Shown: positions 6,743 through 34,497 of the stretch, piece after piece
Layout of the letters: the number at the start of each line of letters is the position of its first letter
How positions within the stretch are numbered: the first letter of the stretch is position 1
IMG/VR virus record: IMGVR_UViG_3300030106_006270
Span: 17,828 to 81,827 of that record
Length of the DNA stretch: 64,000 nucleotides
Reading direction: 5' to 3' (one strand)
Origin: a virus
Position numbers and translations under genes: made by a program
Notes under the pieces: model-generated
Databases searched by the model: none
What the model saw: only the letters and a program-made list of their open reading frames with translations
Told to the model about the DNA's origin: nothing

Positions 6743-7897
6743 TTAGTTAGAGTTCTCTACTTCTTCTTCATTGAACAAGTCTTCAGAAGAACCATCAGAG
6801 ATATACTTCTGAACCAACTGTTTGACATAAGTCCTTTCAGACTCAAGTCCACCATCATCAGAAAACTGAGGATAGATAGTTACTTCAGCAGCTTCATCCA
6901 AACCGAAACCATCAAAGAGTAGTCCAGCAACTTCAACCGAAGTTCTGGTTGATATGCCGGTTGATAATCTACCGGCTTCAGACTTGGACTCTGTGCGACT
7001 CTGTGAAGAAATTTCGGCAACAGACTTCAGTAACTCACCATCAACATGTGGGAACATATACTGAAGTAAGTCATGCTCTTCTTCAGAGTTTAGAACATCC
7101 ATTTCAACAATGATAAATCTATCCATCAGCGCTTTATCCATAACTCTGGTAGAGGTGTACTCATTACCAATATTAGCGGTAGCAACGAAAGTCACGCCCT
7201 CAGCCACATTGATAGTTTCTTGACCTTCACCTTCGTCAAGTCTGAGGTATCTCTGACCACTATCTAAAACTGTCATCAGAATATTCCAAGCATCTGGATG
7301 AGCCCGACTCAACTCATCTAACAAAATAACAGCGTTAGGAGTTTGAATAGCTTTCACAAAAAGAGCCTCAGAGAAGTAAGTACCCTTCTTCTTATCGAAA
7401 TGAGTGTTACCAATTAAGGTAGCTCTTGGGTCTTGTGTGGCACCTAAGTTGAAGTAGAAATCAGGCCTATCAAGTGAGTTAACCAATGACTTAGCAGCCA
7501 TTGTCTTACCACATCCAGCAGGACCTGTCATTAAAATATTCTTACCACGTACAGCGGAACGAATCAGGTACTTCCACTTCAATTCTTTCATTTTCAAACC
7601 AGCAGGTTTTAGGTTGTAAGAACTATGAATGAAGTTAAGAACTTCAGCATGATCTGTAGGAACATCAACTGATGAAACATCGATTACAGGAGCAGCAGTA
7701 GCCTCAAACATATCCATTGGAACTTTCCACCAATAAACCCTACCATTTTTGCCAGTCCTTCTTTCTAAGGCCATACCAGCATTGTAAGCTTTCTTTCTGG
7801 TAGAAGTACCAATTTCTGATGTGTGTTTGTTACCATCAGCATCCCAAGCATTAAACCTATTGCCTGACTTTTCTATTTTTACGATTGTATTTGACAT
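6743..7897 (-). CDS. MoxR/CobS-type AAA+ ATPase
   Basis: 384 residues. An N-terminal domain of about 65 residues (FNAWDADGNKHTSEIG, GRVYWWKVP) precedes the AAA core. Walker A is GPAGCGKT (residues 125-132), Walker B is VILLDELSRAH (about 190-200), and sensor-1 is VTFVATANIGNEYTS. Arg-finger-like RVMDKALMDRFIIVEMD follows. MoxR-family ATPases work with VWA-domain partners to insert metals or remodel protein complexes. The very next gene upstream (8357-10381) is such a VWA protein. Family A promoter copy 2 lies about 48 bases upstream, and two hairpins follow the stop, so this is a single-gene transcript. Its substrate is unknown, but AAA/VWA pairs are frequent in large marine phages. Confidence 0.9.
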   Translation of the reverse strand: MSNTIVKIEKSGNRFNAWDADGNKHTSEIGTSTRKKAYNAGMALERRTGKNGRVYWWKVPMDMFEATAAPVIDVSSVDVPTDHAEVLNFIHSSYNLKPAGLKMKELKWKYLIRSAVRGKNILMTGPAGCGKTMAAKSLVNSLDRPDFYFNLGATQDPRATLIGNTHFDKKKGTYFSEALFVKAIQTPNAVILLDELSRAHPDAWNILMTVLDSGQRYLRLDEGEGQETINVAEGVTFVATANIGNEYTSTRVMDKALMDRFIIVEMDVLNSEEEHDLLQYMFPHVDGELLKSVAEISSQSRTESKSEAGRLSTGISTRTSVEVAGLLFDGFGLDEAAEVTIYPQFSDDGGLESERTYVKQLVQKYISDGSSEDLFNEEEVENSN

Positions 7898-8356: not shown

Positions 8357-10381
8357 TTATTTCTCCAAGAATTTTTTGTTCATTGTTTTAGCGATTGGAA
8401 GAACCGAAGTTACATTGACAAACTCAGAATCAGTTCCATACATTTTTGTGAAAGTTGAATTAGCTCTATCTCTATCCCAACTATCTCCGATAAAGTAACT
8501 AAGAACCTTAACACCACGATTCTTTATCTCTTTAACCATCTTAGCAGTATGATTGATTGCCGTATCATAGTTATAATCGATATCATCATTATTAAACATT
8601 GGCATCCCATCTGAAAAGTTAAGAAAGTAAGAATCCTTATCATTAGAACCCATTTCGATTTCTTTCATTACAGCCTCAAAACACAAACCCTCTGGTGTAG
8701 TGCCTGATGGGCGAAGTAGATGAAACAAGTTTCTTACTTTAGAAATTTTATCAACTCTAGAGTCATAAGCAATCAACATCAATGGATTTACTTTACTACT
8801 TCTTCTACTCATTTGAGTTGATTGAGTGCTTCTGTAAGAAATAACCAAATCAACATTGTTAATCATTGAACAGGCCTTAGCAATCGCTGTTACGGCAGTT
8901 TGAGTATTTTTCCACTTATCTCCACTCATTGAACCACTTGCATCAACAGAAATGTGAAGAAAAGCATCTGAGTAAGCTTCAACAAAAGTAGTGTTAAAAA
9001 CTCTCTCATTACCAAACCCTAACTCAGCAATTAATCTTTTGTCGATTCTACCACTATCTAATCTAGTCCACTTAGTCTCACGCGACTCACCACGCACCTG
9101 AAGTTTCTTACCTAAGATAGTTCCCATAACCAAACCCTTAGCAATACACTCTTTATTCTCATCTGAATACCAAGTGTGGCTTGGGTTTGAAATCATACTG
9201 ATTGTATCAGACTCAGCCAGAGCTTTGTTAAATTTCTTAACCATCAAAACCTTAGTAGGAGTTTTTTTACCTGTCCATCTATCAGTAACACCAGCAACAT
9301 CAACATAACTCATTCCAGCAGACTCAACAGCATCCATAGCAGCCTTATCAGTTTTGGTAAGCTTTTTCTTAGTAATATCACCATCCATAAATTTCTTCTG
9401 TTTTGAAACTGCATTTTCAAGCTGTTTCTTTTGTCTATCACTAAGTTGTGGTTTATCACCACTATCTGAATCAGAACTACTAACACTTTCACCATTATCG
9501 GAACTTTCACTACCTTCGACATTTTCATCGCCATTACCCTCTTCAGATTCTTCAGTAGGATTCACTGTTTGAACATCTAAGTTGTCCAAAAGAATACTAA
9601 AGACTTTTAGTGTAATATCAAATGCTTCCTCAGTAGAGTTCAAAGATTTGACATTACTAAAAATAAGATTTCTGATTTTTTTGAGACCAGGTAAGGAATC
9701 CAAATCTGAGTTTTTATTTGTAAGATTGATAATTCTGAAAATATATGAATCCCAATCCAAAGAAGTGTATTCATCAGATTGAAGTGCTTTATCAATAATT
9801 TTAGAATGAAAATACTTATCGTACATTGAGTGGTAGTAACCTTTGTAGCCAGGTGAATTTGAAAACACAAAGTAATCAATTCGTCTATCTTCTACATAAT
9901 TAAGTAAATCCTTCAATTTAATTTTCACATCATCTCTATCGAAACCAAAGACTTCTGCTCTGTTGAAATATTCCTGAGGAATCTCATTCTCAAGATTTCT
10001 AAGAAAATCAAAATTAGAAAGTTTGATATGAGAACCTTCATGCAATGCCAAACCAACAGTTGGGTCGAATGTTTTGTCATCTAATTTAGAAGATATTACA
10101 ACAGCTTTACCATCTGTGTAACTATCTCCACGCGAATTGAAAGTAACTTTGATATCAGACTCACCAGTAACAATTGATACGAAATTACTGATAGCCCTAC
10201 GATAAGATGCCAGTGCAACTAAATCTACACCTTTCTTAGTTTCTTCCTCATCAAAAATTGATGTCCTACTGATATCATTGTCTAACCAAAAAGACGAATA
10301 ATTACTTGTACGATTCTTAGCAGAGTATTTTTCTCTAAGAGCCATAGGGTTGAAGTTTTTAAGTGTGTTTGAATCTTTCAT
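8357..10381 (-). CDS. VWA-domain protein with HExxH motif, partner of the AAA ATPase (CobT-like)
   Basis: 674 residues. The N-terminal part has LALHEGSHIK (HEGSH at 114-118), a zinc-metallopeptidase-like signature. A long acidic Ser/Glu/Asp-rich linker spans about 275-320. The C-terminal VWA domain has an intact MIDAS motif DASGS (480-484), plus SGTTPEG and FSDGMP, which supply the remaining metal ligands. CobT-type chelatase subunits and the VWA partners of MoxR ATPases share this acidic-linker-plus-VWA plan. The HExxH suggests a peptidase or metal-binding role, which is unproven. Promoter copy 3 lies immediately upstream and AAAGGAAAT precedes the ATG. It probably acts in the host cytoplasm with the ATPase at 6743-7897. 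Confidence 0.88.
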   Translation of the reverse strand: MKDSNTLKNFNPMALREKYSAKNRTSNYSSFWLDNDISRTSIFDEEETKKGVDLVALASYRRAISNFVSIVTGESDIKVTFNSRGDSYTDGKAVVISSKLDDKTFDPTVGLALHEGSHIKLSNFDFLRNLENEIPQEYFNRAEVFGFDRDDVKIKLKDLLNYVEDRRIDYFVFSNSPGYKGYYHSMYDKYFHSKIIDKALQSDEYTSLDWDSYIFRIINLTNKNSDLDSLPGLKKIRNLIFSNVKSLNSTEEAFDITLKVFSILLDNLDVQTVNPTEESEEGNGDENVEGSESSDNGESVSSSDSDSGDKPQLSDRQKKQLENAVSKQKKFMDGDITKKKLTKTDKAAMDAVESAGMSYVDVAGVTDRWTGKKTPTKVLMVKKFNKALAESDTISMISNPSHTWYSDENKECIAKGLVMGTILGKKLQVRGESRETKWTRLDSGRIDKRLIAELGFGNERVFNTTFVEAYSDAFLHISVDASGSMSGDKWKNTQTAVTAIAKACSMINNVDLVISYRSTQSTQMSRRSSKVNPLMLIAYDSRVDKISKVRNLFHLLRPSGTTPEGLCFEAVMKEIEMGSNDKDSYFLNFSDGMPMFNNDDIDYNYDTAINHTAKMVKEIKNRGVKVLSYFIGDSWDRDRANSTFTKMYGTDSEFVNVTSVLPIAKTMNKKFLEK

Positions 10382-10404
10382 ATATTTCCTTTATTATATA
10401 AACA

Positions 10405-10433
10405 AAGCTACGAAGAATTTTGCTAATATACAA
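10405..10433 (-). promoter_or_regulatory. Family A promoter, copy 3
   Basis: TTGTAT (10428-10433), 17 bases, TAGCTT (10405-10410) with TTCG before the -10. It is directly upstream of the VWA gene start at 10381. Confidence 0.8.
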
Positions 10434-10488
10434 GCATTATTTCTTGTTTTCTGGATATTTCTTTTATTGTTTGTCATATACTATATAT

Positions 10489-10505
10489 GGTACAAGAACT
10501 GTACC
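10489..10505. promoter_or_regulatory. Operator-like dyad, copy 1
   Basis: GGTACA-AGAAC-TGTACC is a perfect 6-bp inverted repeat with a 5-base spacer. The right half continues as ACTGTACCAAACT, a 13-mer found again at 13640-13652. It lies upstream of promoter copy 3. Confidence 0.4.
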
Positions 10506-10518
10506 AAACTCAAAAGTC

Positions 10519-10560
10519 TGTCATTTTGTCATCACTATCACACTATCACACATTTTGTCA
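10519..10560. promoter_or_regulatory. TGACA repeat sites, group 1
   Basis: The minus strand reads TGACAAAATGACA (10519-10531) and TGACAAAATG (10551-10560). Similar TGACA pairs with an 8-base period occur at 33198-33260 and 34513-34574, all in non-coding DNA. It may be a protein-binding site upstream of the VWA gene. Confidence 0.35.
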
Positions 10561-10568
10561 GAAGTAGA

Positions 10569-11040
10569 AACGGCTCCTAGCTTTTTTAAGTTTGGTAGAT
10601 AGTGGAAACTAAAAATTTAGGAGCCGTTATAAAAATTGAAAATCGGGGGATGTAGGATTAGCGAATACCTACAACTTCTAGCTCAGATTTTTTTTACTTT
10701 GTACCTAATACCTAAAAGTTACTTTAGTTCTCTTCAAAGTGGTTAGCTTCATTAGAGTGAGTACAACCTCTGTATTATTGCCTTATCTCTCTGAGTTTAG
10801 ATTAATTCAGCCATTAAGTGGGATTTGGTTTTATCCTACCCACAACAAAGTCAAAGAATCGTGTTCTTTAGTTATTCTAGAAGTACATTCCAAGTCGTAT
10901 GTCTACGAATCGCTTCAACCTACGATATTTAGCAGGTGGATATAGTCACCACAACTTCTTGGTAGATTCCCTTATGAGCTTCTATGTTTACTCATTATTC
11001 AGGCAATCCCATAAAGAGTTAATTACTCTCTTTACTTTCT
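10569..11040 (-). ncRNA. Putative structured non-coding RNA or regulatory region
   Basis: About 670 bases between the VWA gene and the gene ending at 11107 contain no convincing ORF on the minus strand, and the plus-strand frames there look like noise. The stretch ends (in the minus direction) with an 11-bp perfect stem, AACGGCTCCTA (10569-10579) with TAGGAGCCGTT (10618-10628), enclosing a smaller AGTTT/AAACT hairpin. A weak promoter, TTGACA (11051-11056), 16 bases, TAAAGA (11029-11034), could start a transcript near 11022. The base composition is less AT-biased than usual intergenic DNA. The boundaries are approximate and the strand is inferred from surrounding genes. Confidence 0.4.
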
Positions 11041-11106
11041 ATTTTCAAATTGTCAAAAAACTTATAAATATATATATATTCGAAAAATCCCAAACTGTCT
11101 TTTTTT

Positions 11107-17651: not shown

Positions 17652-17954
17652 TCAGTCTCCTTTCTTTTTGGAATGTCTAAACCAAAAATCAATTGTTTTA
17701 CCAAAGGTGGCTATGAACGTACCTAAGATAATATTTAATAAATCTCTATGGTTTGGGTCTAACTCTAATACTGGATGAAACAGTAAATATAGCACCCAAT
17801 ACAACACAACAAACATACCAAGTGTAATAGTAAATTGCATCCAATCTGGCAAACCATCCCCACCTAAATATAAATCAGGACCAGTAGGTAGTTCCTTTGG
17901 TTTACTCTTTACATTTCGTCTTTCGACTCCATCCCACTTTTTACTTTCTGCCAT
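17652..17954 (-). CDS. Holin-like two-segment membrane protein
   Basis: 100 residues. After a hydrophilic N-terminus (MAESKKWDGVERRNVKSK) come two hydrophobic segments, at about 40-60 (FTITLGMFVVLYWVLYLLF) and 70-88 (LLNIILGTFIATFGKTIDFW), then a basic tail FRHSKKKGD. A short TM hairpin ending in a tryptophan plus charged tail is typical of phage holins of the T4-like marine group. The gene is far from the endolysin but in the same orientation. Confidence 0.6.
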   Translation of the reverse strand: MAESKKWDGVERRNVKSKPKELPTGPDLYLGGDGLPDWMQFTITLGMFVVLYWVLYLLFHPVLELDPNHRDLLNIILGTFIATFGKTIDFWFRHSKKKGD

Positions 17955-29400: not shown

Positions 29401-29931
29401 TCACAATCTCCTCATAAACTTCCTCTGCTTTGTTGTCATCATTTGTTGTGACGCTAACTCATTCATAATAGTAGATTTATTCATAAGAGTAATCTTATCG
29501 TCACTGTACAATGATTGTGTGTAGTTACAAGCAGCTTGATAACCTCTACTGTCAAACTCTGTCATAACCAACTTAGTTGCTTTTTGTATTGAGAGCAGGG
29601 TGGGAGTCGAACCCACTAACTTCGGGTTTGCAATCCGAGCCCTTTTCCGATTGGGTACCTGCTCATTGTATTTCTTTAACCATCTATCCCAGCTGTTGTC
29701 AGCAAAGATACCTTTGGCTCTCTTATTACCACCAACACCTCTTCTGTCTAATCTCTTCAGTTCATCAGACTTCTCACTAGATACTGGCTGAATGTAACCA
29801 CCTGTTTTATGTGGGTATACTGTATGTGACGAATACTTTTGAGTATCACTACATTCAACACATACATCATAACCCAACTTAATACGCTCATCAGTTAACT
29901 GATGTTCACATTGTTTACATTTCTGGCACAT
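29401..29931 (-). CDS. Zinc-ribbon protein whose reading frame runs through a tRNA gene
   Basis: 176 residues. The N-terminus has C-x-x-C-x-x-C and later C-x-x-C (MCQKCKQCEHQL, VCVECSDTQK), a zinc ribbon, then YPHKTGGYIQPV, a block I recall from short hypothetical proteins of marine phages. At about residues 90-114 the frame is the tRNA-Cys gene read as protein, yet stays open. A Met-rich helical C-terminus follows (MNELASQQMMTTKQRKFMRR). The tRNA may have been inserted in frame. Ending before the tRNA may be the ancestral form. Function unknown. Confidence 0.55.
   Translation of the reverse strand: MCQKCKQCEHQLTDERIKLGYDVCVECSDTQKYSSHTVYPHKTGGYIQPVSSEKSDELKRLDRRGVGGNKRAKGIFADNSWDRWLKKYNEQVPNRKRARIANPKLVGSTPTLLSIQKATKLVMTEFDSRGYQAACNYTQSLYSDDKITLMNKSTIMNELASQQMMTTKQRKFMRRL
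29592..29664 (-). tRNA. tRNA-Cys(GCA)
   Basis: 73 bases on the minus strand. Acceptor GAGCAGG pairs with CCTGCTC (7 of 7), D-arm CCC/GGG, anticodon stem TCGG/CCGA with loop TTGCAAA (anticodon GCA), T-arm GTGGG/CCCAC with loop TTCGACT, and discriminator U, as Cys-tRNA requires. The anticodon stem has an A-C mismatch at its last pair. CCA is not encoded (CAA follows). The gene lies within an ORF on the same strand. Confidence 0.93.
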
Positions 29932-30221: not shown

Positions 30222-31973
30222 TTACAATAAATGTGACACCTCAATATGTTCTGCATTGAACTGTTTTTTCTTTATACCACAGCCCTCTACGAATGTCCAC
30301 TGTTTTCCACCTTTGAAAATTCTTTTATCTATAATTAAATCTATATATCTATCATTACTCACACCTATGCTCATAAGTATTAGTTTCTTCTTAAATCTGT
30401 ATATAGCTCTACTGTTTGCCACAACTCCACTGAAGTAAGTAACTCCTTCGGATTCTTCACAACCAAAGTCGTTTGATAGAAAATCAGAACCATCCCACCA
30501 ACCTGTTTTTTCAAACTGAAACATTGGTGGGCCTTGCTTTCTATTATATAAGTAATTACCGGCTAATATACTTTGTCTTCTATGCACCCATCTACGATAA
30601 GATGAGTTACAATTCTTAATAGTGGCTTTCCAAAACTTCTGTGGTTCTCTGGCTTTCCAATAAGCCAATGCCCATACTAATTGTCCATAGGATAAAGCGT
30701 GTCCTCTGCAGTAACTATACTTCGGTGAGTGTCTTAGTTCAGTAATAATATTTGATTGGTCAGCGTCTTTCTTTTTACCTTGCAATCTATTGAGAAACTC
30801 ATCCATCACATCAGGTTGTTGTTTGCTCCAACCTCTACGGTATCTATCGGCAAAATCCATAGAACATCCTAAACTATCAGAGATATATTCTATGGCATCT
30901 TCATCAGTTATTATCTGTCTCTTACCCTTACCACCACTACGGAAGTAAGCTGCTTTCCTACCACCATCGGCAGCGGCTGGTCTTATCAAAGCCAGAGCCA
31001 ACGCCACATCATACACATTCTTTGGTTGCAAAGCCAGTATAGTCTTTCTCATAGTACGGCTTTCACTTTGAGTTAAACCTATGACTTCTCCTCTGCATAG
31101 TAATTCAGAAGCTAACTTATCATCCTGCGGATACTCTGCTACAGGTTTGGAACTAAGTTGCCACAATTGAGATAATCCTCTATTACATAGTAAATCTATT
31201 TTGATTAAGTTCTGCTCCTCAACATCGTACTTGTCTAATATGATTTGCTTCCTCTGTTCTTTCAACCAAAGTTCATTCGGTACATTGTCGTTAAAAACAA
31301 TCAACCCACCACAATGTAGAGACCACTGTCGTTGCTTACCCAAAAGAGATTTCGCATAGTGTTGAACGTCTTTACGAACATAAGGGTCGGGAAAGATGTC
31401 GGAGAGTTTGTACCTTCGTGGAAGAAACTTACGATAACCAAATTTTCGAATTGCTTCCCTCATAGCAGACTTAGGCTTGTACATAACTTTATTACTTATC
31501 CTAGCAACTTTGTTAGGGTGTATCTCGTGGAACTGCTCTATCAAATCATCCCTAATAAAGTGAGGTACATCTAAGTCGATATCGGGTTGGGTATCCCTAC
31601 ACCAGTTCATAAATCTAGTTAATGGAATCTTTTCTCGGATAGGGTCGATATCACTAATTCCTAATTGATAACAGATTAACGAACTAGCCGCTGAACCTCT
31701 GAGGACATGCGGTATGTTTTGATTTTTAATCAACTGTAGTAAATCACTTACTCTGTGAAATGTAGAGACAAAACCTTTTTGCTCAATAATCTTATACTCT
31801 TTGTCTAATCTTCTGATATACTCCATACCAGTGGGATAAGGGCGTCTGAATCTTTTAATCAATGCCCCTATGGGCTGGGAATACTTTTTATCAACTAAAC
31901 CTATGTGTAAATCTGAATTACTTATATAACCTTCCATGCAGTAATAAATAGTTTCGGAAGGATGGAATATCAA
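30222..31973 (-). CDS. Minimal C-family DNA polymerase (DNA polymerase III alpha-like)
   Basis: Up to 583 residues (TTG start at 31973 or ATG at 31937). Palm motifs: VLRGSAASSLICYQLGISDI (the GRGSAAGS-type block) and PDIDLDVPH (catalytic Asp triplet PDxDxD). Fingers: ALALIRPAAADGGRKAAYF and the C-terminal SYCRGHALSYGQLVWALAYW. Host PolIIIα is about 1,160 residues. Here the PHP exonuclease, the beta-clamp-binding tail and the OB domain are absent. A motif B-like TATTTATTA lies between the two possible starts. Such stand-alone polymerases replace host enzyme in some large phages. Confidence 0.85.
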   Translation of the reverse strand: MIFHPSETIYYCMEGYISNSDLHIGLVDKKYSQPIGALIKRFRRPYPTGMEYIRRLDKEYKIIEQKGFVSTFHRVSDLLQLIKNQNIPHVLRGSAASSLICYQLGISDIDPIREKIPLTRFMNWCRDTQPDIDLDVPHFIRDDLIEQFHEIHPNKVARISNKVMYKPKSAMREAIRKFGYRKFLPRRYKLSDIFPDPYVRKDVQHYAKSLLGKQRQWSLHCGGLIVFNDNVPNELWLKEQRKQIILDKYDVEEQNLIKIDLLCNRGLSQLWQLSSKPVAEYPQDDKLASELLCRGEVIGLTQSESRTMRKTILALQPKNVYDVALALALIRPAAADGGRKAAYFRSGGKGKRQIITDEDAIEYISDSLGCSMDFADRYRRGWSKQQPDVMDEFLNRLQGKKKDADQSNIITELRHSPKYSYCRGHALSYGQLVWALAYWKAREPQKFWKATIKNCNSSYRRWVHRRQSILAGNYLYNRKQGPPMFQFEKTGWWDGSDFLSNDFGCEESEGVTYFSGVVANSRAIYRFKKKLILMSIGVSNDRYIDLIIDKRIFKGGKQWTFVEGCGIKKKQFNAEHIEVSHLL

Positions 31974-33125: not shown

Positions 33126-33197
33126 TATGATACCCTTTTTATATCAAATCCCATAGGGTTTAAAACCTGCCTGTATATGAAAATCAGTATGAGCGCC

Positions 33198-33260
33198 TGA
33201 CATTTTGTCATACTGCTGCCGATTCCCTAGCAATTGCCTCAGGTGGCGTCAATTTGTCAG
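33198..33260. promoter_or_regulatory. TGACA repeat sites, group 2
   Basis: TGACATTTTGTCA (33198-33210, an inverted TGACA pair) and GTCAATTTGTCA (about 33248-33259) flank about 40 bases between genes. See the groups at 10519 and 34513. Confidence 0.35.
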
Positions 33261-33442
33261 GCTTCTCCGATAATCATGCCTAAGGCTTCATAGTGAGTTC
33301 TATCAGAGTGTACTGCTACCAGTATTGTTTCGATGAACTCTGAGTCATTTTCGAGCACATACTTTGCCTCTCCTAATGACCACATCCTTACCATCTCATC
33401 TTCTAGCCTAGCTATTATCTCATATACTTGTTCCATATCCAT
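33257..33442 (-). CDS. Small helical protein, unknown function
   Basis: 61 residues, MDMEQVYEIIARLEDEMVRM at the start, acidic and amphipathic. A CTATTTATAG motif (variant of motif B) lies 10 bases before the ATG, so the message may have almost no leader. It lies downstream of the non-coding RNA region. Confidence 0.55.
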   Translation of the reverse strand: MDMEQVYEIIARLEDEMVRMWSLGEAKYVLENDSEFIETILVAVHSDRTHYEALGMIIGEA

Positions 33443-33492
33443 ACCTATAAATAGTGTAGTGTGTTAGCAAAAATCTTTTTATCTTACCGCTC

Positions 33493-33893
33493 AAAAAATA
33501 GACGGTGCCAAAGGGTAGTTAACTCTATCGCCAGGAAAACTATCCTTCCAACAGCACCGCCTACATAACAACAAACAATAAGGTAAATCTTTGAGTTGGT
33601 CTGTTTCTGTCTTTTAGTTCGAACACTCAGACATAATACGAGCTATCTTACGAATTACACTTTAAGGGAACTCACCCCACCATAAGCCTACTCTTGCATT
33701 TCGAACCTATGGCCAACAAATTCTTTGTCGGTATTTATCTATGAGTTCCGACTTCTCAGCTGCCTCACCATTCTTGACTCTACTGAGGACTTTAGCAGAG
33801 CCCCACACTCTTCTTACTCTATCCCGTCTTTACCCAATGTGGTAGGTGGGATTACGAGCTTTCTCTAATTCATCGGTATTATCTCATTTCTCA
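33493..33893 (-). ncRNA. Putative structured non-coding RNA with its own promoter
   Basis: About 400 bases with no ORF in any frame of useful length, lying directly downstream of promoter copy 6 (predicted start near 33893), without a ribosome binding site after it. Base composition is clearly more G+C rich than other non-coding DNA here. The 3' end has a 9-bp stem AGGCGGTGC (33554-33562) with GCACCGTCT (33500-33508), followed by a U-run (33493-33498), an intrinsic terminator layout. Inside are a GGAA/TTCC hairpin (33534-33549), two TTCGAA-containing segments near 33625 and 33700, and repeated AGCTCGTA. It does not show tmRNA, RNase P or 6S features. It might be a new member of the large ornate RNAs (GOLLD/ROOL-like) seen in phages. 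Confidence 0.6.
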
Positions 33894-33899
33894 TATATA

Positions 33900-33928
33900 A
33901 AGCTACGAAGAAATCCGCTAAAATACAA
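33900..33928 (-). promoter_or_regulatory. Family A promoter, copy 6
   Basis: TTGTAT (33923-33928), 17 bases, TAGCTT (33900-33905) with TTCG before the -10. It is the only copy followed by non-coding DNA rather than a ribosome binding site and ATG. Confidence 0.8.
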
Positions 33929-33961
33929 GGAAAAAGTCCAGAAATATTGATCTTTTTTTAC

Positions 33962-33991
33962 TTGACATATATGGGATTTATTCAGTATACT
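33962..33991 (+). promoter_or_regulatory. Consensus-like promoter on the plus strand
   Basis: TTGACA (33962-33967), 18 bases, TATACT (33986-33991). It faces into the 3' end of the minus-strand gene at 34006, so would give an antisense transcript from about 33998. No plus-strand gene follows. This could be chance in AT-rich DNA. Confidence 0.35.
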
Positions 33992-34005
33992 CTGGCGCTG
34001 CAGAA

Positions 34006-34497
34006 TTAGGATGGCTTACTGAAGGCAGAGTAGACAGCCTTTTGAAATGACTTAACTGACTTCGGTATATCTACGCTCACTCTGTCGAGCTTCAACAGAT
34101 AGAAACAGTTGTAGCATAACACCCTTAGATTCGCTAAGTCTTTGTTAGTTGGGTCGTCATCCAAATAGTCCAGCATTAGCGGCTTAGACATATCCTGTGG
34201 TCTATACTCATCATATCCACAGTTACCACACTCCTCCGCTAAATAACCTTCGCGGTGTAGTCGATGCTGTAATTTCGTGGTACTGTAATTAGGATTCTCA
34301 CCCGCTAGTATCTTATCCAACTCTATTGGTCTACCCTTAGAGTCTCTCGACACTCCCGCATTACTGGCGGGCTCCCATAAGTCGTATAGCTTAGCATACT
34401 TCTTAAAGGTATTATAACTTACGCTAAGTATTTTGGCTGCTCTACGCATAGATGTGGTTTCGTTGATTGCCCAAGCTATTTTACTTTTTGCTAACAT
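34006..34497 (-). CDS. Degenerate HNH-like protein with helix-turn-helix
   Basis: 163 residues. The N-terminal part (SMRRAAKILSVSYNTFKKYA) is a Fis-type helix-turn-helix. The C-terminal domain has CGNCGYDEYRPQ and NLRVLCYNCFY with four Cys for a structural zinc, as in HNH endonucleases. The catalytic His of the first H motif is Tyr (LDYLDDDPTN) and the last His is Phe. It is probably a DNA-binding protein derived from an HNH nuclease, without cutting activity, and may act as a regulator. Two TGACA pair sites lie 15-75 bases upstream. Confidence 0.7.
   Translation of the reverse strand: MLAKSKIAWAINETTSMRRAAKILSVSYNTFKKYAKLYDLWEPASNAGVSRDSKGRPIELDKILAGENPNYSTTKLQHRLHREGYLAEECGNCGYDEYRPQDMSKPLMLDYLDDDPTNKDLANLRVLCYNCFYLLKLDRVSVDIPKSVKSFQKAVYSAFSKPS

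Follow-up and report, generated by a model that had tools for sequence, protein, structure and literature searches.

We analysed a stretch of 64,000 nucleotides, hereafter the window (positions 17,828 to 81,827 of IMG/VR virus record IMGVR_UViG_3300030106_006270), in which a predicted non-coding RNA (ncRNA) of about 400 nucleotides lies between a gene for an HNH-type protein of 163 amino acids (aa) and a gene for an acidic helical protein of 61 aa (Table 1). The record is a 95,890-base phage genome, and all whole-record counts were made on the window and its two flanking stretches joined. Its minus strand carries nearly all genes and was established as the strand of the RNA, which an earlier interpretation of the letters alone (the sequence-only reading) had left unstated. 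On the promoter, terminator and comparative evidence presented below, the interval very likely encodes a genuine structured RNA that is independent, acts in trans and is put together in varying ways from interchangeable domains.

Table 1. Position of the RNA, its parts and its flanking features in the window
Feature	Position	Strand	Basis or remarks
HNH-type protein, 163 aa, upstream flanking marker	34006..34497	-	PHROGs HNH endonuclease, E 8.5e-10; 51 related loci
Family-A promoter, Bacteroidota sigma-A-like (TTG ... TAGCTTT)	33899..33928	-	Recurrent motif; predicted transcription start near 33893
Whole predicted non-coding RNA, about 400 nt	33493..33893	-	Promoter, absence of an open reading frame, fold, terminator, comparison
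5' domain (W1) with stable hairpin CUCUGCU/AGUAGAG	33757..33893	-	Fold; phage-specific so far
Hairpin module D, GUCGG ... CCGAC then AAAGA	33719..33756	-	Also in L015, L016, L024, L070 and L072
Module C, outer stem GUUGG/CCAAC with hairpins C1 (8 bp), C2 (3 bp) and C3 (5 bp)	33595..33717	-	Homologues in L015, L082 and L044
Terminator hairpin with loop module H (CCUGGCGAUAGAG at 33535-33523)	33500..33563	-	9-bp base stem
Terminator U-run AUUUUUU	33493..33499	-	Read from sequence
Spacer to the 61-aa gene: GAGCGGUAAGAUAAAAAGAUUUUUGCUAA element, then TATTTATA at 33453-33446	33443..33492	-	Element kept in relatives
61-aa acidic helical protein, C-terminal GEA, flanking marker outside the RNA	33257..33442	-	In window, L015-L027 and L083

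The promoter belongs to a motif (cTTGtATnTTAGCaaaaTTcTTCGTAGCTTT) present in 11 copies on the gene strand of the record, and a blastn search with it retrieved seven other genomic copies (E values down to 4e-15). Ten of the 11 copies have the start of an open reading frame (ORF) within about 10-55 nucleotides downstream; the copy before the RNA is the only one that faces none, in agreement with the sequence-only reading, which had placed a family-A promoter in front of an ORF-free stretch. The promoter box TAGCTTT resembles TAnnTTTG, the -7 box of flavobacterial sigma-A promoters (PMC9723704). Only one ORF-free stretch of the record is longer than the gap that follows (33443-34005, 563 bases), and the longest minus-strand ORF within the RNA span has 33 aa (17, 5 and 6 stops per frame). 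The gap has the highest G+C content (0.39) among the five gaps with 180 bases or more, the other four having 0.30-0.36, so that the earlier remark on a G+C content above that of surrounding spacers also holds. At the far end, 33555-33563 pairs with 33500-33508 around a long imperfect loop and is followed by TTTTTT (33493-33498); the 9-bp stem and U-run of the earlier reading are thus seen in the sequence, and the stem is also paired in the minimum-energy fold. A simple terminator scan missed this terminator (33493-33563) because the loop limit of the scan is 8. The folding energy is unremarkable (z -2.0 on the minus strand and -1.7 on the plus strand against shuffles), and since it is only mildly better than that of shuffles, energy alone would not establish an RNA.

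From the 5' end, the window RNA comprises an unassigned domain (W1), hairpin D, domain C and the terminator hairpin with loop H. On sequence comparison, the best-supported part is module C. A profile built from its homologues in related loci L015 and L082 alone finds the window copy with E 1.9e-17 (nhmmer), as the only match in 96 kb, and a fourth copy, in L044, found later by profile, keeps 8/8 C1 pairs and 5/5 C3 pairs, mostly with different bases. In the alignment of the four sequences, 11 of 21 pairs are changed on both sides and 95.2% of cells are paired, a result equalled by 0/500 shuffles, whereas sliding the partners by 1-3 bases lowers pairing to 34-57%; the structure having been derived from three of these sequences, the covariation test is independent only for L044. 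The isolated C domain of the window folds to the same outer stem and main hairpins. The homologues also differ by insertions and deletions of 1, 2 and 12-14 bases and have stops in nearly all frames (one L082 frame is open), and a conserved ORF is therefore excluded. In-frame conservation had been set beforehand as a point on which a non-coding interpretation could fail, and covariation had been proposed as a check: the helices of module C are shared and covary, the frames are broken, and comparison supports the ncRNA with its own promoter and terminator that the sequence-only reading had proposed. It is this comparative evidence that decides for a real ncRNA, because of the profile match and the covarying helices of module C, and the interval combines the attributes of an independent ncRNA gene (a promoter and a terminator of its own, a conserved structure and no conserved ORF).

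Hairpin D scores E 3e-7 with a profile that includes the window copy, and is also visible without the profile. Loop H, an identical 13-nucleotide sequence, occurs among the fetched loci only in the window, L018 and L020, on three different closing stems; it sits at the tip of the variable hairpin of module A in L018 and L020 and in the terminator hairpin in the window. W1 lies where relatives have module B, ahead of hairpin D. Despite this similar order, W1 was not assigned to module B, since the B model gives no real match; neither module A nor module B models find one in the window, W1 included.

The search with the upstream HNH gene gave 51 loci, thirteen of which (L015-L027) also carry the downstream 61-aa gene. 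Besides the window, the order HNH gene, promoter-bearing spacer, 61-aa gene is found in fourteen contigs (L015-L027 and L083), independent loci being a little fewer than this count as L022 and L023 share one identical spacer. L083, a contig in a Flavobacteriales metagenome-assembled genome (MAG), carries a closely similar stretch in which the HNH gene, the 61-aa gene and their neighbours are all the same, and a Flavobacteriales host is therefore likely for the phage. In the relatives, the spacer measures about 400 to 1315 bases and opens with at least one promoter; in most of them it contains structured RNA modules linked by short AAAGAAUUU-like sequences. Array contents vary: B-D-G-C in L015, A-B-D-E in L016 and L024, B-E-A in L018, B-E in L019, B-A in L020, A-A in L022 and L027 and A in L083, for D-C in the window; L017, L025 and L026 have short ORFs in the spacer instead of modules. 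Terminator-like hairpins with U-runs, read from the sequence, end the arrays in L018, L021 and L027.

Modules are also found beyond this site. A-B-D in L070 and L072, and B in L010, stand before a gene for a cobS-like ATPase, with another promoter between the modules and that gene, and other genes neighbour C-E-G in L082 and C in L044. Module J forms arrays with G in L033/L089 (one contig) and recurs in L090; it is a short hairpin with CUACCnAUUUG in the loop region, present as 2-3 repeats per array (L033 11012-11235, L089, L090). Covariance-model searches of 22 records gave strong matches to A in 12 (and two weak ones), strong matches to B in 10, and C in 3. In the 395 genomes of the order of the Flavobacteriales MAG, module A was found only on the phage contig of that MAG and module B nowhere at E <= 0.001, under strict filters by which weak copies could be missed; the modules are, so far, elements of phages. 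Several candidates were set aside, namely module E pattern matches in L078 and L079, dropped as chance since they fall in apparently unrelated coding stretches, a module B match in the MAG (G020 C16) that looks like an ordinary transfer RNA (tRNA) gene scoring via its T-arm, and a module B match in L091 in coding-like sequence. In L069 (2073-2480), a different and G+C-rich phage, a sigma-70-like promoter is directly followed by a sequence (AUAGGGUUAAGAGCCACUGC) that matches module A weakly (22.8 bits, E 0.002), with a T-arm-like 3' end; this element is possibly a distant large RNA.

Three modules absent from the window also covary. Module A (12 distinct copies) has eight pairs with two-sided changes, 93.3% of cells paired and a conserved internal loop (AAGGUUAAGAGCCACUG/UCUGG); module B, with a core of about 110 nucleotides that includes a T-arm, has 95.0% and eight such pairs, and module E 93.7% and fourteen. 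For A, B, C and E, 0/500 shuffles match the real alignment in pairing percentage and covariation score. All five short-form copies of module B (L010, L018, L019, L020 and L042) have a closing stem of exactly 7 bp, in five different sequences. This stem ends just before AAGG and is followed by a two-base AA linker; its 3' strand comes directly after the T-arm (loop UUCRAnU), and no other upstream position gives a stem as good. With this 7-bp acceptor-type stem joined to a T-arm in 5/5 copies, short-form B has the topology of the acceptor/T half of a tRNA and of the tRNA-like domain of transfer-messenger RNA (tmRNA), with stem, two-base linker and T-arm in tRNA order. It differs from both in having no anticodon arm, tag ORF or encoded CCA end, and ARAGORN, which looks for a complete cloverleaf or a tag ORF, detects no tRNA or tmRNA at the window array or in the arrays of the relatives. 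Long-form B (L015, L016, L024 and L070) did not show this topology.

Comparison with known RNAs was consistently negative. Rfam 15 has no match at the RNA site in a scan of the whole window and none at E <= 5 in 33150-34050, so that the earlier statement that no standard RNA is matched stands at gathering and permissive thresholds alike; over the arrays of the searched relatives, it returns nothing except sub-threshold pieces of tmRNA T-arm in L020. The resemblance of some modules to 5S ribosomal RNA and to pieces of RNase P, seen by eye, was dropped for want of cmscan support. An HNH-associated guide RNA of the HEARO/omega-RNA type was also considered; HEARO has no match in 33150-34050, and the neighbouring HNH protein, with 163 aa, is no IscB-sized effector. 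A blastn search of 50,697 phage records gave only chance matches of 26-37 bases, and a literature search, with most subscription papers outside its reach, found no description of such module arrays.

The record does hold one known structured RNA of marine T4-like phages. A manA RNA (RF01745, 66.9 bits) lies at 10647-10844 on the minus strand, in the longest ORF-free gap of the record (10382-11106), before a cobT-like gene (8357-10381) and a cobS-like ATPase gene (6743-7897). Array modules take the place before the cobS-like gene instead in L070, L072 and L010. RNAs of the manA family have been described in potential 5' untranslated regions (PMC2864571). In manA, the 3' hairpin beside the closing stem may recall module B, whereas 33150-34050 has no manA match.

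We propose, with a probability of about 0.5, that the window encodes an independent, phage-made structured ncRNA of about 400 nucleotides, issued from a modular locus and acting in trans as a decoy or scaffold. A host-type promoter would drive the RNA, which would be ended by the intrinsic terminator before the 61-aa gene and could then be processed; the 61-aa gene seems to be read from its own late-type promoter. One fixed site, and other sites in other phages, would hold modules that fold separately and vary from phage to phage. During infection the RNA would act in trans, each module being a compact fold that binds a component of the host or of its anti-phage systems (translation or tRNA-handling proteins, nucleases, sensors) and captures it as decoy or scaffold, and the exchange of modules would adapt the phage to different hosts or defences. 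Such exchange of modules between relatives at one fixed site is typical of accessory loci, which often serve counter-defence. Several points weigh against this proposal: transcription and the start site are predicted from sequence, the 5' domain W1 is without homologue among the loci compared, and the decoy role is drawn only from modularity, variability and the tRNA likeness of module B, which is absent from the window; the variation of the arrays could also reflect neutral drift or recombination at a permissive site. A wider proposal, that marine Bacteroidota phages carry cassette arrays of at least seven unrelated structured RNA modules (one of them tRNA-like), mixed like anti-defence protein genes into an RNA anti-defence island where each module is a separate inhibitor or decoy, is tentative and rather unlikely.

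Two other explanations are about equally improbable. The RNA could be a cis-acting 5' leader (riboswitch-like or attenuator) of the 61-aa gene, as the two are same-strand neighbours, with the RNA directly upstream, and each of the 15 HNH-flanked loci has the 61-aa gene after the spacer. However, a terminator and then TATTTATA stand between RNA and gene, the content of the array varies while the 61-aa gene is constant, and in L070, L072, L010, L082 and L044 modules precede other genes or are separated from the next gene by a second promoter. This position independence, with the own promoters and terminators and the conserved folds, argues for a trans-acting RNA rather than the leader of any one gene. 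An antisense or base-pairing small RNA that regulates host or phage mRNAs would fit the own promoter and terminator and the conserved single-stranded loops, such as loop H, but conservation lies in covarying folds across 400 nucleotides and not in one seed.

Slightly less probable is an RNA like GOLLD or ROOL, which self-assemble (PMC12286853), forming large RNA particles. The sequence-only reading had drawn this comparison, and it is apt insofar as these are also large structured RNAs of phages or prophages, of similar size class and of unknown function; it fails at the level of family, since no Rfam family matches even at E <= 5 and the GOLLD and ROOL covariance models find nothing in the window or the searched relatives. 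Moreover, arrays of the window type exchange separate modules and are shorter (several have less than about 350 nucleotides), unlike a fixed ornate fold, and the window has no tRNA island around the RNA, its lone tRNA-Cys lying at 29591-29664. The least probable explanation, that the modules are decaying and now functionless remnants of tRNA or other genes in a permissive spacer, would account for T-arm-like hairpins without full tRNAs, for the variable contents and for the short ORFs that replace modules in L017, L025 and L026, but A, B, C and E keep their pairing through two-sided changes, and promoter and terminators are retained.

Between the RNA and the 61-aa gene, the spacer carries a conserved element (AGCGGUACGCUAAAUAAUAUUUAGCU) that precedes the 61-aa gene in L015-L025, with or without RNA modules; in L088, a different small gene is preceded by a similar element (CGGTACGCT). 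The gene strand has 15 copies of TATTTATA and the opposite strand 6, and TATAAATA is present 6 times genome-wide. Several copies, some 20-35 bases upstream of start codons, may represent a variant of a T4-like late promoter, and the TATTTATA copy at 33453-33446 is possibly the late promoter of the 61-aa gene. The 61-aa protein, predicted to be all-helical (pLDDT 85, pTM 0.49), has no match in Pfam, PHROGs or the 50,697-record phage collection, and the 163-aa HNH-type protein has none in Pfam. Elsewhere in the window, an ORF of 583 aa (30222-31973, minus strand) contains DNA polymerase III alpha domains (NTPase and finger); its relatives (77-81% identity) are in contigs without the HNH/61-aa locus within the fetched stretch.

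Descriptions of orphan phage RNAs usually present each as a single conserved family. The sequence-only reading had likewise seen a single orphan RNA; a large phage RNA it is, with interchangeable modules, shared with other marine phages, that were beyond its view. We count it among the large orphan structured phage RNAs, though its organisation in arrays may prove to be a separate kind. At this one locus, several modules recombine that covary and are missing from Rfam. The presence or absence of modules in natural phages can be compared with host range and defence, and the modules can be tested separately, the tRNA-like module B being a concrete first target. More generally, these arrays show that a considerable number of structured phage RNAs in marine data have yet to be catalogued.
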